28,504 nucleotides of DNA from a virus. The notes beneath the pieces are model-generated. The model ran no database searches, had not been told where the DNA came from, and saw only the letters and a list, made by a program, of their open reading frames with translations. Positions 22,244-28,430 of this stretch are shown here, piece after piece; positions within the stretch are counted from its first letter, which is position 1; every line of letters begins with the position of its first letter. Location of the stretch: positions 1 through 28,504 of the IMG/VR virus record IMGVR_UViG_3300033143_000900, one strand, 5' to 3'. Position numbers and translations under genes: made by a program.

Positions 22244-22437
22244 TAAGATACGTGAATTTCATCAGTCATTTCTTCTGATGAATTATTTTTCCAATTAGCA
22301 TAACATTCGCTCTTGCCAGGAGAGTATGGTGATCTACATCCTATGTCTATTGCATTATCCCAGCCAGTCATATATGCTTCTTTGAGTTTTTCTTCAAAAC
22401 TGCCATCTATTTTAGCAATAAATTCTTTTCTATCCAT
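22243..22437 (-). CDS. Small hypothetical protein (64 aa)
   Basis: Its ATG overlaps the portal stop as TAATG, so it is coupled to portal translation. The product begins with a charged helix (DRKEFIAKIDGSFEEKLKEA) followed by YMTGWDNAIDIGCRSPYSPG and an acidic end. Two cysteines (C.SPYSPGKSEC) are nearby. No family recognised. The late promoter for the next gene lies across its stop codon. Confidence 0.6.
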   Translation of the reverse strand: MDRKEFIAKIDGSFEEKLKEAYMTGWDNAIDIGCRSPYSPGKSECYANWKNNSSEEMTDEIHVS

Positions 22438-24158
22438 TATACTTCATCTCCTCCAGCTTCAAGATCAACTTCACCACCAGGGAGGTCAGCACCATCACCT
22501 AAGTCTTCATCGCCCATATCCTCTTCGCCTTCTACATCGTCAAAGTCTTCGAAGTCTCCGCCGCCTACTCCTACTGATCTTAGGTCAGCTACAGCACCAC
22601 TGTCTTCTGTTGCGTGAGGTACTGATTGTTCTTGACGCCATAGTTTTTCGTTCTCAGCAATCTCAGTCTCATTCAAGCCTAAGTAACGTTTCATCATCCA
22701 TCGCTTACTCATGTAAGGTGTGTCTTTCATGCTGGCAAACAAGTTAGCGTATGCTGCGTCGATTTCGATTTGACGATATTCTGAGAAGTTCTGCGGCTCA
22801 CATAGCTCTAGTGCGAAAATACTGCTATCAATCGTAAAGCCTCTGTGCTTGAGGAATAACTTAAATTCTTCATCAAGTGTTGGCATGACTTGACGCTGAT
22901 GACGTTGACATACTTTCGAGAATCTGAATTCTTGAATGAATGCTGTGCCAACTCGTCCATCATTGTATGCTGAACTACCATCGTCTGGACCTGTAGGCAA
23001 ATAGCTGCTAGGTACGCCGAGGCCACGTAGCATCTTGTTGTTGAAGTATTTAAGATCATCAATCTCACCCAAGTTATCACCACCTGGGAGTGTCTCTACT
23101 TTAGAACCACGACCATCTGCTGTAGCAGCAAAGAAGTAATCTTCAAGCATTGACATTGGATTGTAAGCTGAATCAGTAATACTCTCGCCGCCGCCTGTTC
23201 GTGATGGAATACGCTTCTGCTGTACTTCATAACGAATGCGTTCTAGGTATTGTGCTGCTTTGTTAGGCGGCATTGTACCTACGTCAATATAGAATATACG
23301 ACGTTCTGGTGCACGGTGAACACGATAGATTAGAATGCTGTCTTCAAGTAGTTCTTTCTGCTTGTATACTTTGAAGATCGTTTCAAGAATACTGATACCG
23401 AAAGGCCATGAACTGTTCATGCCTTCTGTCATACTTAGCTGTACAACGTGCTGTCCATCAACAGGGAACGCTTCAGCGTTTGAGTACTGCGAACCTGATG
23501 TGCTAATCATTCCTGACGCTGAACCAGTAGAGTAGTTAGCTTGGCCAGTATACGGCGCATTAGGGAAGATTGTATCTTGAGCATTGTAGCCCATCTGTGT
23601 CTTCTTAAATGTATTAGTAGCTGTCAACGATTGAAGATTTAAGTCAAGTTCGCGAATGTAATACGCTTCGATTGCTTTACCTTCTGATTCATTGACTAGT
23701 ACTTTTTCTACAGTTGAAGGATCAACCCAATGTAGTTTGAATGTCTCTGGATCACGTATTAAGAACTGATCTCCATACATGAGTGTAGAACGAAATAGAC
23801 GCCATATGCGTTTAGGAAAGTCATTTAGATTAGACCACTGTCGTAGTGCTGCAACTAGAATTTCTTTCTCTGATGTGCTAGCATCTTTCGTATACTTAAT
23901 ATCAAACGGAGTCTGTGTTGTTACATTGACTGCTGTTGAGAAGTCTGCAATAGTGTCCATAGCTGCTGATACTTCATGGTCAAGATCCATCTGTTCATAC
24001 TGCATATAGCGCATGAGCCTATTAGGAGGGCCTTGATAGAATTCAGGAAGCCAACTAGAAAATTTGTTTAGTGCTGTTGCACCACCAGAACTGCTTCCAG
24101 GTGAAGATTGTTGTGGCAAAACCGAGTTAACCGGCTTAAAAAACTTAGTCCAAGCCAT
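22437..24158 (-). CDS. 20: Portal vertex protein (gp20-like), 573 aa
   Basis: The twelve-subunit ring at the head vertex, through which DNA enters and the tail attaches. Diagnostic segments include YEQMDLDHEVSAAMDTIADF (residues 49-68), LMYGDQFLI, YRVHRAPERRIFYIDVG, NKMLRGLGVPSSYLPTGPDD and LFLKHRGFTID. Length is slightly above T4 gp20 (524 aa), mainly an acidic Gly-rich tail from about residue 520 (DFEDFDDVEGEEDMGDEDLG). ATG 24156-24158 overlaps the stop of the upstream GIY-YIG gene (TAATG), and its AAGGAGA site lies inside that gene. Confidence 0.93.
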   Translation of the reverse strand: MAWTKFFKPVNSVLPQQSSPGSSSGGATALNKFSSWLPEFYQGPPNRLMRYMQYEQMDLDHEVSAAMDTIADFSTAVNVTTQTPFDIKYTKDASTSEKEILVAALRQWSNLNDFPKRIWRLFRSTLMYGDQFLIRDPETFKLHWVDPSTVEKVLVNESEGKAIEAYYIRELDLNLQSLTATNTFKKTQMGYNAQDTIFPNAPYTGQANYSTGSASGMISTSGSQYSNAEAFPVDGQHVVQLSMTEGMNSSWPFGISILETIFKVYKQKELLEDSILIYRVHRAPERRIFYIDVGTMPPNKAAQYLERIRYEVQQKRIPSRTGGGESITDSAYNPMSMLEDYFFAATADGRGSKVETLPGGDNLGEIDDLKYFNNKMLRGLGVPSSYLPTGPDDGSSAYNDGRVGTAFIQEFRFSKVCQRHQRQVMPTLDEEFKLFLKHRGFTIDSSIFALELCEPQNFSEYRQIEIDAAYANLFASMKDTPYMSKRWMMKRYLGLNETEIAENEKLWRQEQSVPHATEDSGAVADLRSVGVGGGDFEDFDDVEGEEDMGDEDLGDGADLPGGEVDLEAGGDEV

Positions 24159-24733
24159 TAGATTATCTCCTTCTTAACTTCATATGCAGTTCGCCTTGCA
24201 GCACTCCACGGCTTACCTTTATTGCCACAACCATTTTTATTATTCATTTTGCCTTTAGACATTTTCTGTCGTGTTTCTTGTGATACGGTTTTACCTTTGT
24301 GTACTTCGGATAATAATGCTTTGTGTTCATCAGTGATTACAGCACCTGTTCTCGGATGATTCTCTTTCTTCTTAAACAGTTCTTTCTTAATTTCTGATAT
24401 TTGTGCTTTGATTTCAGCGGAATGTGTTTTACCATAAAAAGTATTATTCTTGCCTGCGGCACCGCCCTTGCCGCCAACTCTTAAATTATAGGTATCTGAT
24501 CGTGCAACAAAATCTTCATTTACTAGTTCCACTTCTTTTGCAACCATCTGTTCTTCAGAATCATACACAAACAAAATTTTCTTTGTGAAGTTTTCAATGC
24601 CAGATTTTTTAATAGCGCGAGAAAGATGCAACCCCGATCCTAAATATTCATCATTTAAGTCATCAGTCGTGTGCATACCTATATAAATTTTGCTGTTGAT
24701 ATTGTTAGTTGTTTGATAAACCGTATAATTCAT
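24158..24733 (-). CDS. GIY-YIG homing endonuclease upstream of the portal (191 aa)
   Basis: VY (residues 5-6) and YIG (17-19) form the GIY-YIG core, followed by GSGLHLSRAIKKSGIENF, VAKEVELVNEDFVARSDTYN (candidate catalytic Glu) and a GGKGG turn. NUMOD3-like repeats follow (HSAEIKAQISEIKK, TDEHKALLSEVHKGK, SQETRQKMSKGK). It is a paralogue of the 4633-5283 gene. I start at ATG 24731-24733; the longer frame begins with TTG and runs through the promoter box. The ATG is exactly five bases after GATAAATA, predicting a leaderless mRNA. Its end overlaps the portal start, so portal translation depends on DNA inside this mobile gene. Confidence 0.85.
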   Translation of the reverse strand: MNYTVYQTTNNINSKIYIGMHTTDDLNDEYLGSGLHLSRAIKKSGIENFTKKILFVYDSEEQMVAKEVELVNEDFVARSDTYNLRVGGKGGAAGKNNTFYGKTHSAEIKAQISEIKKELFKKKENHPRTGAVITDEHKALLSEVHKGKTVSQETRQKMSKGKMNNKNGCGNKGKPWSAARRTAYEVKKEII

Positions 24734-24737
24734 ACCC

Positions 24738-24746
24738 TTATTTATC
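24738..24746 (-). promoter_or_regulatory. Late promoter of the endonuclease-portal unit
   Basis: GATAAATA (24746-24739) is followed by AGGGT and ATG 24733. It is the only late promoter seen directly upstream of the portal gene. Confidence 0.75.
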
Positions 24747-24777
24747 AACAACTAGTCGTTTTTACTGAGAGTTTTGG

Positions 24778-26745
24778 TTACTTTTCAGAAAGGCTGCCGC
24801 CGCGAATCTCAGCAAGCATTTTTCTTATCTGTGTTACCTGATCTTGGTTAAGTTTGAGTAGTTCTGCTTCGAACGCACTGTGTCCTGCGCCTGAACCTCC
24901 TGCTGTAGTATTGCTTAGATCAGCAGTTCCTGCATCTGATCTAGTTAATCTAGCTGCTTCTGCTCGTATTTGTTGAGTGTCCATGCCACCGACCATTACT
25001 GGTGGGGCTTCTCCTCCGCCACCAGTTAAATCTACTACACCGCCAGTAATCTCTTTAATCCATGCAGTTAGACTGCCCCATCCCATCATTATACCTTGAA
25101 TCATATTATTGATAGCTTCACCTGCTTTCTGAAACCAACCTATAACTGGTTTTATTACTGCGCTTAGATCAGCAAAGACTTCTTTCAACACTCCCCAAAA
25201 TATTAAGGCTTGTTCTTTCATTGATTCAATGCCATCAACCATAGGCCCGTCAATAAATGCGAGTGCTTTCTCATTTAGTACACCTAGTGCATCGGCAGCC
25301 ATGTTAACTGCTTGTGTTCCCTTGCCGCCGAGTAGTGTAGAGAATGCTTTAACCATCAAATACTCTTTAGTAGCTTCAAATTTTGATAGCTCATCTTGTA
25401 GATTTGCTTGTGCTGCAACGTTCTTATCTACAGTTTTCATATATTCTTCCATAGACTGTCCAGCGTCCGCTGCGGCTTTGCGATGATTTGCCATAGACAC
25501 TTTGCCTTCTTCTGCTGCTTGTCCCCAAGCTGAAGCTTGTACTGCTACATTCTTAATTTCGCCGCCTGCTAGACGCAATGCAGATAACTGTTCTTTTTCT
25601 GCATCTGTTAATTCAGCCATTGCCATTAACTGTGCAAGTGTTGCACCTTCACCAGCTTTGTTTGCATCAGAAAGTTTTACCATTCTCTGCGCTAGATCAC
25701 CGAGACCTGCATCAGCTAGCTGCTTGAACCCATCTGATGCTTCTGCTACTGGAGATGCAGCAATGTCAGTGAATATCTTGCCCATTTCTAATCCTGCAGG
25801 ACCCATTGCAGCAAACGATTGTGCTGTTTCTGCGAATGCTGCTTGCGCGGCCATTCGTTCTTTCGGAGCCATGCTAAACAGTTCTGCTTGTAGATCAGCA
25901 TTGCTCAACATCTCTCTAGATGCATCTTGCAAGTCTTTACGTGAGACATTCAATACTTTCGAGTAAGCTGTCAAACGTTCAATATTTGATTGTAGTGCTG
26001 CTGCTTGATTTGCTTGAGATGCCTTTCCAAATACACCAGCCATTCTCTGTTGATCTAGAAATTCTGCTGCATACTCAGTTGCTTCTGCTGTTGTTAGACC
26101 GAATTTGTGGAAGTTACCTGCTGATGCTTCTGTAGCCTTAGTAAGATCAAGTAATCCTTGAAGACCATTCTGGCCCATGACTCTAGCATACTTATCTGCC
26201 ATCTCACCAAATTGTTCAAGTGATATGCCTGTAACAGCTAGTGACCTTGATACTTCTACGAAGCTGCCCTGAAACTGAACACCTGAATCTGATAAGTTAC
26301 GTAATACAGATACACTTTGCTGTACAGATTTAATATACTTGCCTATTGCAGCGCCGATGAGGCCAACGCCTGCAAGCATTCCTTTAAATCCCATAGATGC
26401 GTTCTTTAATGACTTACCAAAAGCCTTCATTGGGCCAGTATTAAGTTTATCAAGTCCTGCTGCTGAATTTAGTGCGGCTTCTCCAGACTCTTTGAGGCCA
26501 GCAGTCATTAATTTAGTAGCAGACTGAACTTCTTTTGATCCCTTGCCGCCGCCTGAGACGCCACCTGAAGTTACTTTACCAGTATTCTTCATCTCCGTAG
26601 CTTGACGTTGAAGTATCTTCTTTTGTTCGTTACTTGTACCAGCTAAGTCTTTTATAGTATCAAGGAGATCAGCAAGCGTCTTCTCAGATGCCCACGCCCC
26701 ATAAATACTTCCTGTTACTTCAACTTCGCTACCAATGTCAGCCAC
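24778..26745 (-). CDS. Tape-measure-like virion protein (655 aa)
   Basis: A long, mostly helical, Ala-rich protein. Near residues 120-140 it has a hydrophobic glycine segment (FKGMLAGVGLIGAAIGKYI). Around 520-580 there is a second hydrophobic region (ALIFWGVLKEVF, VIKPVIGWFQKAGEAINNMI, then GIMMGWGSLTAWI). This layout is typical of phage tape-measure proteins, which set tail length and can enter the host envelope. It is near the length of T4 gp29 (590 aa), but I see no decisive gp29 motif. The start is GTG 26743-26745, with GAGGGG about 9 bases upstream. It is divergent from the gp26-type gene, with interleaved promoters. Confidence 0.65.
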   Translation of the reverse strand: MADIGSEVEVTGSIYGAWASEKTLADLLDTIKDLAGTSNEQKKILQRQATEMKNTGKVTSGGVSGGGKGSKEVQSATKLMTAGLKESGEAALNSAAGLDKLNTGPMKAFGKSLKNASMGFKGMLAGVGLIGAAIGKYIKSVQQSVSVLRNLSDSGVQFQGSFVEVSRSLAVTGISLEQFGEMADKYARVMGQNGLQGLLDLTKATEASAGNFHKFGLTTAEATEYAAEFLDQQRMAGVFGKASQANQAAALQSNIERLTAYSKVLNVSRKDLQDASREMLSNADLQAELFSMAPKERMAAQAAFAETAQSFAAMGPAGLEMGKIFTDIAASPVAEASDGFKQLADAGLGDLAQRMVKLSDANKAGEGATLAQLMAMAELTDAEKEQLSALRLAGGEIKNVAVQASAWGQAAEEGKVSMANHRKAAADAGQSMEEYMKTVDKNVAAQANLQDELSKFEATKEYLMVKAFSTLLGGKGTQAVNMAADALGVLNEKALAFIDGPMVDGIESMKEQALIFWGVLKEVFADLSAVIKPVIGWFQKAGEAINNMIQGIMMGWGSLTAWIKEITGGVVDLTGGGGEAPPVMVGGMDTQQIRAEAARLTRSDAGTADLSNTTAGGSGAGHSAFEAELLKLNQDQVTQIRKMLAEIRGGSLSEK

Positions 26746-26838: not shown

Positions 26839-27693
26839 ATGAATCAAAGCACAAATCCACTAACGCAGTTTTACCGTAAAGAAACTACGTACATACAACT
26901 GCCTTCAAGAGGACACTTTTATGACGATGATGTTGTCAACTTCTTAGACAACGGCGAACTTGCTGTAATGCCAATGACTGCGGCAGATGAAATTACACTC
27001 AAGAATCCAGATGCACTATTATCTGGAAAAGCTATTGTAGATGTAATTACTAGCTGTGTTCAAGGGGTAAAGAAGCCGAAGAAACTATTAGCTTGTGATA
27101 TTGATGCATTAATGATTGCAATTAGAGAAGCTTCTTATGGTGATGAAGCAGCAATGGAATTAGACTGCCCCAATGAAAAATGTAAAGCTAAAAACGAATT
27201 CGGTTTGAATCTTGAAATGTTACTCAATGAATCAGAAACACTTGAAGAAACATACGAAGTAGTACTACCTAGCAACTTAACAGTATATCTCAAACCAGGA
27301 ACATTTGACACAACAAATCGTCAAAACAAAGCAGCGTTTGAGAATGCTAAGATACAGAGAGCGATGAATAATCCTTCTATAACTGATGAAGTACAAATGA
27401 AACTGTTAGCTCAAGTATTCAAATCACTAACTAAGCTGAACTTTGAAGTAATTGAAGGAGCAATTGAAAAGATTGTATTCACAGATGATGAAGAAGAAAC
27501 ACAAACAATCACTAACAAGAAACATATTTCAGAGTTCATCAAAAATATAGACAAATCTACAGTTGATATTATAGATACTAAGATCAGTGATATTAATAAG
27601 ATAGGTATATCGAAAACACTAGACGCAGTATGTACAACATGTGGACATAAATGGGAAGCGCCAATTGAATTTAATCCTGTAAATTTTTTATAA
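26839..27693 (+). CDS. 26: Baseplate hub protein, gp26-type (284 aa, zero-frame product)
   Basis: Recognised by YIQLPSRGHFY (residues 18-28), LAVMPMTAADEITLKNPDAL and ACDIDALMIAIREASYGDEA, and by two cysteine pairs, C110/C115 and C265/C268, suggesting a zinc site. This is the pattern of the T4 base-plate protein (gp26) family; it is longer than T4 gp26 (208 aa). The C-terminal EFNPVNF is followed by TTA and TAA. The codons AAT TTT TTA form an in-phase U UUU UUA slippery site at 27684-27690. The start is ATG with AAGGGG six bases upstream. It probably acts in hub assembly and, as in lambda tail chaperone genes, a frameshifted longer form is expected. Confidence 0.85.
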   Translation: MNQSTNPLTQFYRKETTYIQLPSRGHFYDDDVVNFLDNGELAVMPMTAADEITLKNPDALLSGKAIVDVITSCVQGVKKPKKLLACDIDALMIAIREASYGDEAAMELDCPNEKCKAKNEFGLNLEMLLNESETLEETYEVVLPSNLTVYLKPGTFDTTNRQNKAAFENAKIQRAMNNPSITDEVQMKLLAQVFKSLTKLNFEVIEGAIEKIVFTDDEEETQTITNKKHISEFIKNIDKSTVDIIDTKISDINKIGISKTLDAVCTTCGHKWEAPIEFNPVNFL

Positions 27694-27923
27694 GGTTTCT
27701 ATCGTTAGCAGAACCCGAGGAGATCAGGGACCATTTACAACAGCTTCGGAAAGACACTGATGCTATCGAGCAAGGGTGTATTGAGTTATGTTATCACATG
27801 AAAGGTGTTACATGGAACGAAGCATGGGGAATGAGTCCCAAGCAAAGAAATAAAATAGTAGGATATATTAATAAAATATACAAAGATCAAGAAGAAGCAC
27901 AGACAGGCAAGAAATCAATGTAA
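27675..27923 (+). CDS. -1 frameshift extension of the gp26-type protein (77 aa after the shift)
   Basis: Opening just before the slippery site in the -1 frame, this ORF continues as IRFLSLAEPEEIRDHL, then RKDTDAIEQGCIELCYHMKG and VTWNEAWGMSPKQRNKIVGY, to TAA 27921-27923. The helical WNEAW/SPKQR segment looks like the short proteins that follow gene 26 in T4-like phages (gp51 area). No ATG, GTG or TTG occurs before the ATG at 27798, which would start inside the conserved segment. Expression is therefore most simply a gp26 fusion of 361 aa by -1 frameshifting at 27684-27690. The gp51 relation is tentative. Confidence 0.75.
   Translation, partial: SCKFFIRFLSLAEPEEIRDHLQQLRKDTDAIEQGCIELCYHMKGVTWNEAWGMSPKQRNKIVGYINKIYKDQEEAQTGKKSM
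27684..27690 (+). promoter_or_regulatory. Slippery heptamer U UUU UUA for programmed -1 frameshifting
   Basis: T27684 is the third base of the zero-frame AAT codon, so TTT and TTA are in phase and the stop codon follows at once. A small hairpin starts 3 bases later (27694-27700 with 27710-27715, one bulged T, 9-base loop). No Shine-Dalgarno-like stimulator is evident upstream. Confidence 0.75.
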
Positions 27924-27926
27924 ATT

Positions 27927-28430
27927 ATGGAAATATACGCAGCCACAAATAGAAAGAGTAATAAATCGTATATAGGTTATACGATGTATACACTGAATGA
28001 AAGACGCGATCAACATTATAGAGATGCCCGCGGCGGCTCTGATTATCATTTCCATAGGGCATTACGAAAATATAAAAAGACTGATTGGATTTGGGTAACA
28101 CTAACAACTTGTAATAATAAAGATCAATCACTTAACGAAGAAATAAAACTCATAGCAGAGTATGGCACATATGAAAATGGATACAATAGTACACCTGGCG
28201 GCGAAGGCGGAGGCGGTCCTACATCAGAAGCAACTAAGAGACTTATATCTAAAACATTAACAGGATCTAAACAGACACAAGAACATATTAATAATAAAGC
28301 AGCATCACACAGGGGAACGATACATGGTCCTCATACAGAAACAACAAAAGCAAAAATATCAGCGAGCAAGAAAGGTGTTGCATGGACAGAAGCTCGCTGG
28401 GAAGCACACAGACAGAGGCAAATAACATGA
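27927..28430 (+). CDS. GIY-YIG homing endonuclease (167 aa)
   Basis: EIY (residues 2-4) and YIG (15-17) are followed by an Arg pair (26-27) as in classical GIY-YIG nucleases, SLNEEIKLIAEYG (candidate catalytic Glu 71/72) and NGYNSTPGGEGGGG. The C-terminus has NUMOD3-like repeats (TSEATKRLISKTLTGSK, HTETTKAKISASKKG). It is less similar to the other two GIY-YIG genes than they are to each other. It sits 3 bases after the frameshift ORF with no clear ribosome binding site, and its TGA overlaps the next ATG (ATGA). No GATAAATA box precedes it, unlike the other two. Confidence 0.82.
   Translation: MEIYAATNRKSNKSYIGYTMYTLNERRDQHYRDARGGSDYHFHRALRKYKKTDWIWVTLTTCNNKDQSLNEEIKLIAEYGTYENGYNSTPGGEGGGGPTSEATKRLISKTLTGSKQTQEHINNKAASHRGTIHGPHTETTKAKISASKKGVAWTEARWEAHRQRQIT

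Follow-up and report, generated by a model that had tools for sequence, protein, structure and literature searches.

In phage lambda, slipping by -1 close to the 3′ end of a tail gene produces an extended minor product (the gpG/gpGT pair), and frameshifting in this style has been called conserved among the long-tailed phages, "except T4" (PMC5009743). The T4 proteins gp26 and gp51 have been named among the hub assembly chaperones (PMC3004832) and, as cited in PMC10885494 and PMC12846349, were identified as tail assembly chaperones (TACs) by Vladimirov, Gautam and Davidson (2022, Virology 566:9-15). With reference to the same work, these citing papers add that some T4-like phages do without frameshifting and have two copies, one short and one long and fused (PMC10885494), and that poly-T -1 frameshift signals are known in the TAC-N genes of T4-like phages (PMC12846349). 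For phage Adele (Vandenendeviridae / Andersonviridae), PMC12846349 describes a chaperone gene with a conserved poly-T -1 site (GTTTTT) and a -1 extension, located 5′ of the tape measure gene. Here we describe a gene towards the end of the 28.5-kb IMG/VR virus record IMGVR_UViG_3300033143_000900 ("the window" refers to this whole stretch of 28,504 nucleotides). Judging from its sequence, the gene very probably gives both versions of a T4-type tail assembly chaperone, short (TAC-N) and long (TAC-NC), by programmed -1 ribosomal frameshifting. What we observe at this locus is the sequence of the site and its phase, its conservation, selection on the -1 frame, a trend in RNA structure and a chain of homology. 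The principle of a -1 slip in T4-type chaperone genes is already known, and the window gene is a further case. An earlier reading of the letters alone (the original prediction) had taken such a frameshift in the gene 26/51 pair to be undescribed, which is contradicted by the chaperone assignment and the poly-T signals as given in PMC12846349. The features on which the argument turns are as follows.

26839-27693, plus strand: T4 gp26-type gene, predicted short tail assembly chaperone (TAC-N), 284 amino acids (PF12322, phrog_150)
27681-27687, plus strand: first slippery heptamer, A_AAT_TTT, in phase
27684-27690, plus strand: second slippery heptamer, T_TTT_TTA, in phase (T_TTT_TTC in most relatives)
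27691-27693, plus strand: zero-frame stop TAA of the short form
27675-27923, plus strand: -1 open reading frame (ORF), predicted post-slip extension of the long form (TAC-NC), supported by substitution rates and profile links
27694-27732, plus strand: weak predicted hairpin, candidate frameshift stimulator (arms 27694-27703 and 27722-27732)

The gene matches Pfam family PF12322 (T4_baseplate) at 3.9e-17, with 63.1 bits against a gathering score of 24.5, and PHROG family phrog_150 (baseplate hub) at 3.6e-24, in line with its earlier designation as a gp26-type protein. Its 3′ end reads GTA AAT TTT TTA TAA. As had been claimed from the letters, T_TTT_TTA is in phase directly before the stop, and the -1 frame is open from 27675 (9 nt 5′ of that heptamer), stays open for ∼77 codons beyond it until the TAA at 27921-27923, and has its earliest ATG, GTG or TTG at 27798. 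Overlooked in that reading was a further in-phase heptamer, A_AAT_TTT, which is the sole heptamer in some relatives; the two heptamers overlap, both have the X_XXY_YYZ phase, and both are crossed by the -1 ORF. At the local stop frequency, an open run of 77 codons would arise by chance in about 0.5% of cases. The window's own -1 ORF had no match in PHROGs or Pfam.

Decisive evidence that the heptamer and the -1 ORF exceed chance comes from comparison with relatives, because both are kept in 126 of 126 family loci, loci having been admitted to this count if the -1 ORF reached at least 60 codons and those excluded being partial matches of 20-33% identity. The window itself is counted among the 126, as are some records duplicated between collections, and grouping by protein identity gives 83 clusters at the 80% level and 51 at the 60% level. 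For the collection scans, closer subsets replaced the alignments A1 and A2 (19 sequences), whose divergence was too great. Within the family, two different heptamers (T_TTT_TTC/A/T or A_AAT_TTT) fill the same position: 57 loci have T_TTT_TTC alone, 44 have both types, 23 have A_AAT_TTT alone and 2 have T_TTT_TTT alone, and A_AAT_TTT is the sole heptamer in 16 of the 83 clusters. With the encoded protein taken as fixed, the combined probability that all 45 T-type representatives would carry T_TTT by synonymous choice alone is ∼10^-23, a figure that treats the representatives as independent and, given their shared ancestry, overstates the surprise. With tblastn, the -1 ORF was found beside gp26 in jumbo phages including PA5oct, Atu_ph07, Phosso, CBB, GAP32, BF and SCTP-2, and gp26 was also matched in RaK2, PBECO4, XacN1 and others; IMG/VR supplied many further loci. 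For each of the 16 named phages whose junction was read, T_TTT_TT[CT] stands at the end of the gp26 gene, again in this phase, and the -1 ORF begins with FF at the site. Several relatives of the window (L019, L025, L027-L031 and L033-L041) carry only A_AAT_TTT, in the context GTA AAT TTT TCN, and form a natural experiment on heptamer use.

Substitutions in the -1 frame 3′ of the gp26 stop follow the pattern of coding sequence. When the window is compared with L018, a relative at 87% identity, the frame's ratio of nonsynonymous to synonymous substitution rates (dN/dS) beyond that stop is 0.074, indicating strong purifying selection; the median over 120 pairs, which are not independent of one another, is 0.10, and the differences concentrate at third positions of the -1 frame. 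Together with the conservation in 126 of 126 loci, these values support the central claim of the original prediction, that a programmed -1 frameshift fuses a gp26-type protein to the next ORF. RNA structure, too, has its family-wide peak just past the heptamer. In sliding 50-nt windows over 51 representatives, the folding z-score directly 3′ of the heptamer was -1.30 ± 0.21, compared with mostly 0 to -0.4 elsewhere, and long stems begin ∼5 to 8 nt 3′ of the heptamer in several relatives (L126, L096 and L081). RNAalifold gave a weak consensus stem in the window clade and none in the two other clades tried. For the stem of the window's own hairpin, 84.8% of cells pair in that clade, versus 26-56% in slid registers, and the covariation score is modestly above that of shuffled alignments (35 of 500 shuffles reach it). 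Since stem registers vary both between and within clades, our claim is limited to the energy peak seen in the family as a whole and to the pair counts of the window clade. A Shine-Dalgarno (SD)-like motif lies upstream in only 3 of the 51 representatives. A second, smaller dip in folding energy is seen family-wide near the end of the -1 ORF, with a mean z of -0.87 at +180 nt from the heptamer.

The gene can be tied to genes 26 and 51 of T4 by way of the cyanophages. T4 gp26 and gp51 both match PF12322 over its whole length (scores of 215.6 and 177.5), gp51 having ∼48 residues more, which makes them paralogues, one short and one long. They share with the window locus the Pfam family and the pairing of a short form with a C-terminally extended form, but in T4 these are two separate, divergent genes, whereas here both would come from one gene by a -1 slip. 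T4 and its close relatives keep the EFF residues of gene 26 but spell them GAG/GAA TTC TTT, and in every T4-type locus where the end of gene 26 was read it lacks a heptamer, which serves as a natural control. The cyanophages (Kyanoviridae) are closer in layout. In S-PM2 the genes annotated 26 and 51 are neighbors: gene 26 has TCT TTT TTC GCA TAA as its end, gene 51 occupies the -1 frame, and a hairpin of 14 bp comes next. An in-phase T_TTT_TTC is present in 80 of 80 cyanophage-type loci, at position -13 in every locus listed. The likeness to the window extends to site, frame and hairpin; the cyanophage extension, however, is shorter (∼60-68 amino acids) and only distantly related, and the S-PM2 hairpin is stronger than the window's. 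With hhalign, the cyanophage -1 ORF matched the C terminus of T4 gp51 at 96.6% (E 5e-10), and a profile comparison linked the cyanophage and jumbo-phage -1 ORFs at 69% (E 4e-5); neither match was equaled in any of 100 column shuffles. The link to genes 26 and 51 drawn in the original prediction is therefore supported by comparison, except that the T4 genes are divergent and the adjacent, frameshifted layout belongs to the cyanophages and jumbo phages. Some cyanophage loci (18 of 80, within L153-L231) carry an extra in-phase G_GGT_TTA or G_GGT_TTG 5′ of T_TTT_TTC, at -25 among those listed.

We propose that most ribosomes would halt at 27693 and yield the 284-amino-acid short form (gp26, TAC-N), while a minority would slip back one base on AAT TTT TTA (as A_AAU_UUU or U_UUU_UUA) and continue as far as 27920, giving a long form (TAC-NC) with ∼77 added residues, the presumed equivalent of cyanophage gp51. 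If lambda gpG/gpGT is a guide, the short form would coat the tape measure protein, the extension would recruit tail tube subunits, and both forms would depart before the tail is complete. In T4, the same two products come from the paralogous genes 26 (short) and 51 (long).

Could the downstream ORF instead be a gene in its own right, translated either from a separate start codon or through coupling to termination at the gp26 stop? An ATG does lie at or near that stop in BF, PBECO4, XbC2, Kaldavass, Atu_ph07, Phosso and S-PM2, and many relatives are annotated with a separate downstream gene, but the phages bearing such an ATG retain the heptamer all the same. In the window the first start, at 27798, falls inside a conserved segment, and the PA5oct -1 ORF contains no ATG, GTG or TTG at all. 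The original prediction had pointed to a shared heptamer and a missing start codon as features to look for in the junctions of relatives; the heptamer is universal among the family loci, 25 of the 83 clusters lack a nearby start, and only 14 of the 83 have a start plus SD-like motif. The FF and the residues that follow it, encoded 5′ of any start, are conserved in the -1 frame, and with so many members lacking starts we consider independent initiation quite improbable. Slippage of RNA polymerase on the T6 run, which would produce -1-frame mRNAs, could draw on the presence of that run in most members and on hairpins, which may also assist such slippage. We think it slightly more improbable still, because the run is fixed in one codon phase, which polymerase slippage does not need, and because clades with only A_AAT_TTT (A3T5) still keep the -1 ORF; the structure peak, moreover, is located where a ribosomal stimulator would be. 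Homopolymer runs are also prone to error, and an assembly or sequencing fault, or a decayed gene, might split what was one frame. An identical junction in another contig (L017), the same junction in L018, the recurrence over 126 loci and the purifying selection refute this for practical purposes, leaving it a negligible chance.

Programmed frameshifting thus remains the favored account of the junction, and a last alternative concerns only the function of its product: the frameshift would be real, but the long form would act in baseplate hub assembly. A comparison with the HK97 chaperone fold gave no match above background, which is in its favor; the production of two forms of one protein by a -1 slip, the tape-measure position of the adjacent gene and the reassignment of gp26 and gp51 to the tail assembly chaperones, published and relayed in the citing papers, speak against it, and we hold it to be unlikely. 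A short form and a C-terminally extended form with a common N-terminal part are present at the sequence level, as gp26 and its conserved -1 extension, and the chaperone role is suggested by the T4 gp26/gp51 assignments and by the lambda analogy. That analogy, also made in the original prediction, gains support from the comparative evidence. The slip site of lambda is of the G_GGA_AAG type and so differs from those described here. The likeness to Adele lies in the poly-T -1 site and the -1 extension, as given in PMC12846349, but Adele belongs to other phage families.

Several points weigh against our reading. The slipping, its rate and the chaperone role are all things that we infer. The window's own hairpin is weak, with a z of only -0.76. 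The direct match between the jumbo-phage extension and T4 gp51 is faint (9%), which leaves that homology resting on the cyanophage link. A model of gp26 from AlphaFold2 (predicted local distance difference test, pLDDT, 93.4 with 59 sequences) showed no fold match to the HK97 chaperone (2OB9) above background, either with Foldseek (E 2.9) or with VIA-align (Z 6.2, root mean square deviation 5.1 over 102 of 107 residues, within background). The divergent neighbor, finally, is a tape measure protein only as a candidate. A single-sequence AlphaFold model of gp26 had been discarded (pLDDT 35).

We tentatively suggest, at rather less than even chances, that the frameshifted 26/51 gene is ancestral in the T4 superfamily, which takes in cyanophages, jumbo phages and their relatives, with U_UUU_UUC and A_AAU_UUU interchangeable and followed by a hairpin, and that the T4 group lost the slip by duplication into 26 and 51, "gene 51" elsewhere being no independent gene; the order of slip, then duplication, is conjectural. 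The "except T4" exception looks limited to T4-type phages with a separate long gene, the cyanophage and jumbo relatives having retained the slip. A literature search found no description of the frameshift in either jumbo phages or the 26/51 pair of cyanophages, which is weak evidence given that not all hits were read and that subscription papers are mostly outside its coverage; the jumbo-phage part and the clade with only A_AAU_UUU may be undescribed. For annotation, what is called "gene 51" in cyanophages, and a "hypothetical protein" or nothing in jumbo phages, would be corrected to the C-terminal part of a long chaperone. In public annotation of four jumbo-phage loci (L001, L002, L005 and L014), the -1 ORF is begun late, at an internal codon (Atu_ph07 and CBB), or is absent (PA5oct and RaK2).

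The genes around the locus are the following.

22437-24158: portal gene
24158-24751, minus strand: second homing endonuclease gene (phrog_314, 8e-45)
24778-26745, minus strand: divergent neighbor in the tape-measure position, 655 amino acids (relatives in PA5oct and RaK2)
27927-28430: GIY-YIG/NUMOD3 homing endonuclease gene, beginning 3 nt after the -1 ORF stop codon

The gene at 24778-26745 had no Pfam or PHROG family match. It is akin to the structural protein that PA5oct has at the corresponding position (E 1e-15) and weakly matches RaK2 ORF088 (E 2e-4), whose annotation is similar to tape measure protein. The endonuclease gene at 27927-28430 looks like an insertion that spared the -1 ORF, because L018 has no such gene there and runs directly into the next gene (ATGACATTCTTAGG...). 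The second endonuclease gene separates the portal gene from the tape-measure-like gene, two genes that are adjacent in RaK2.
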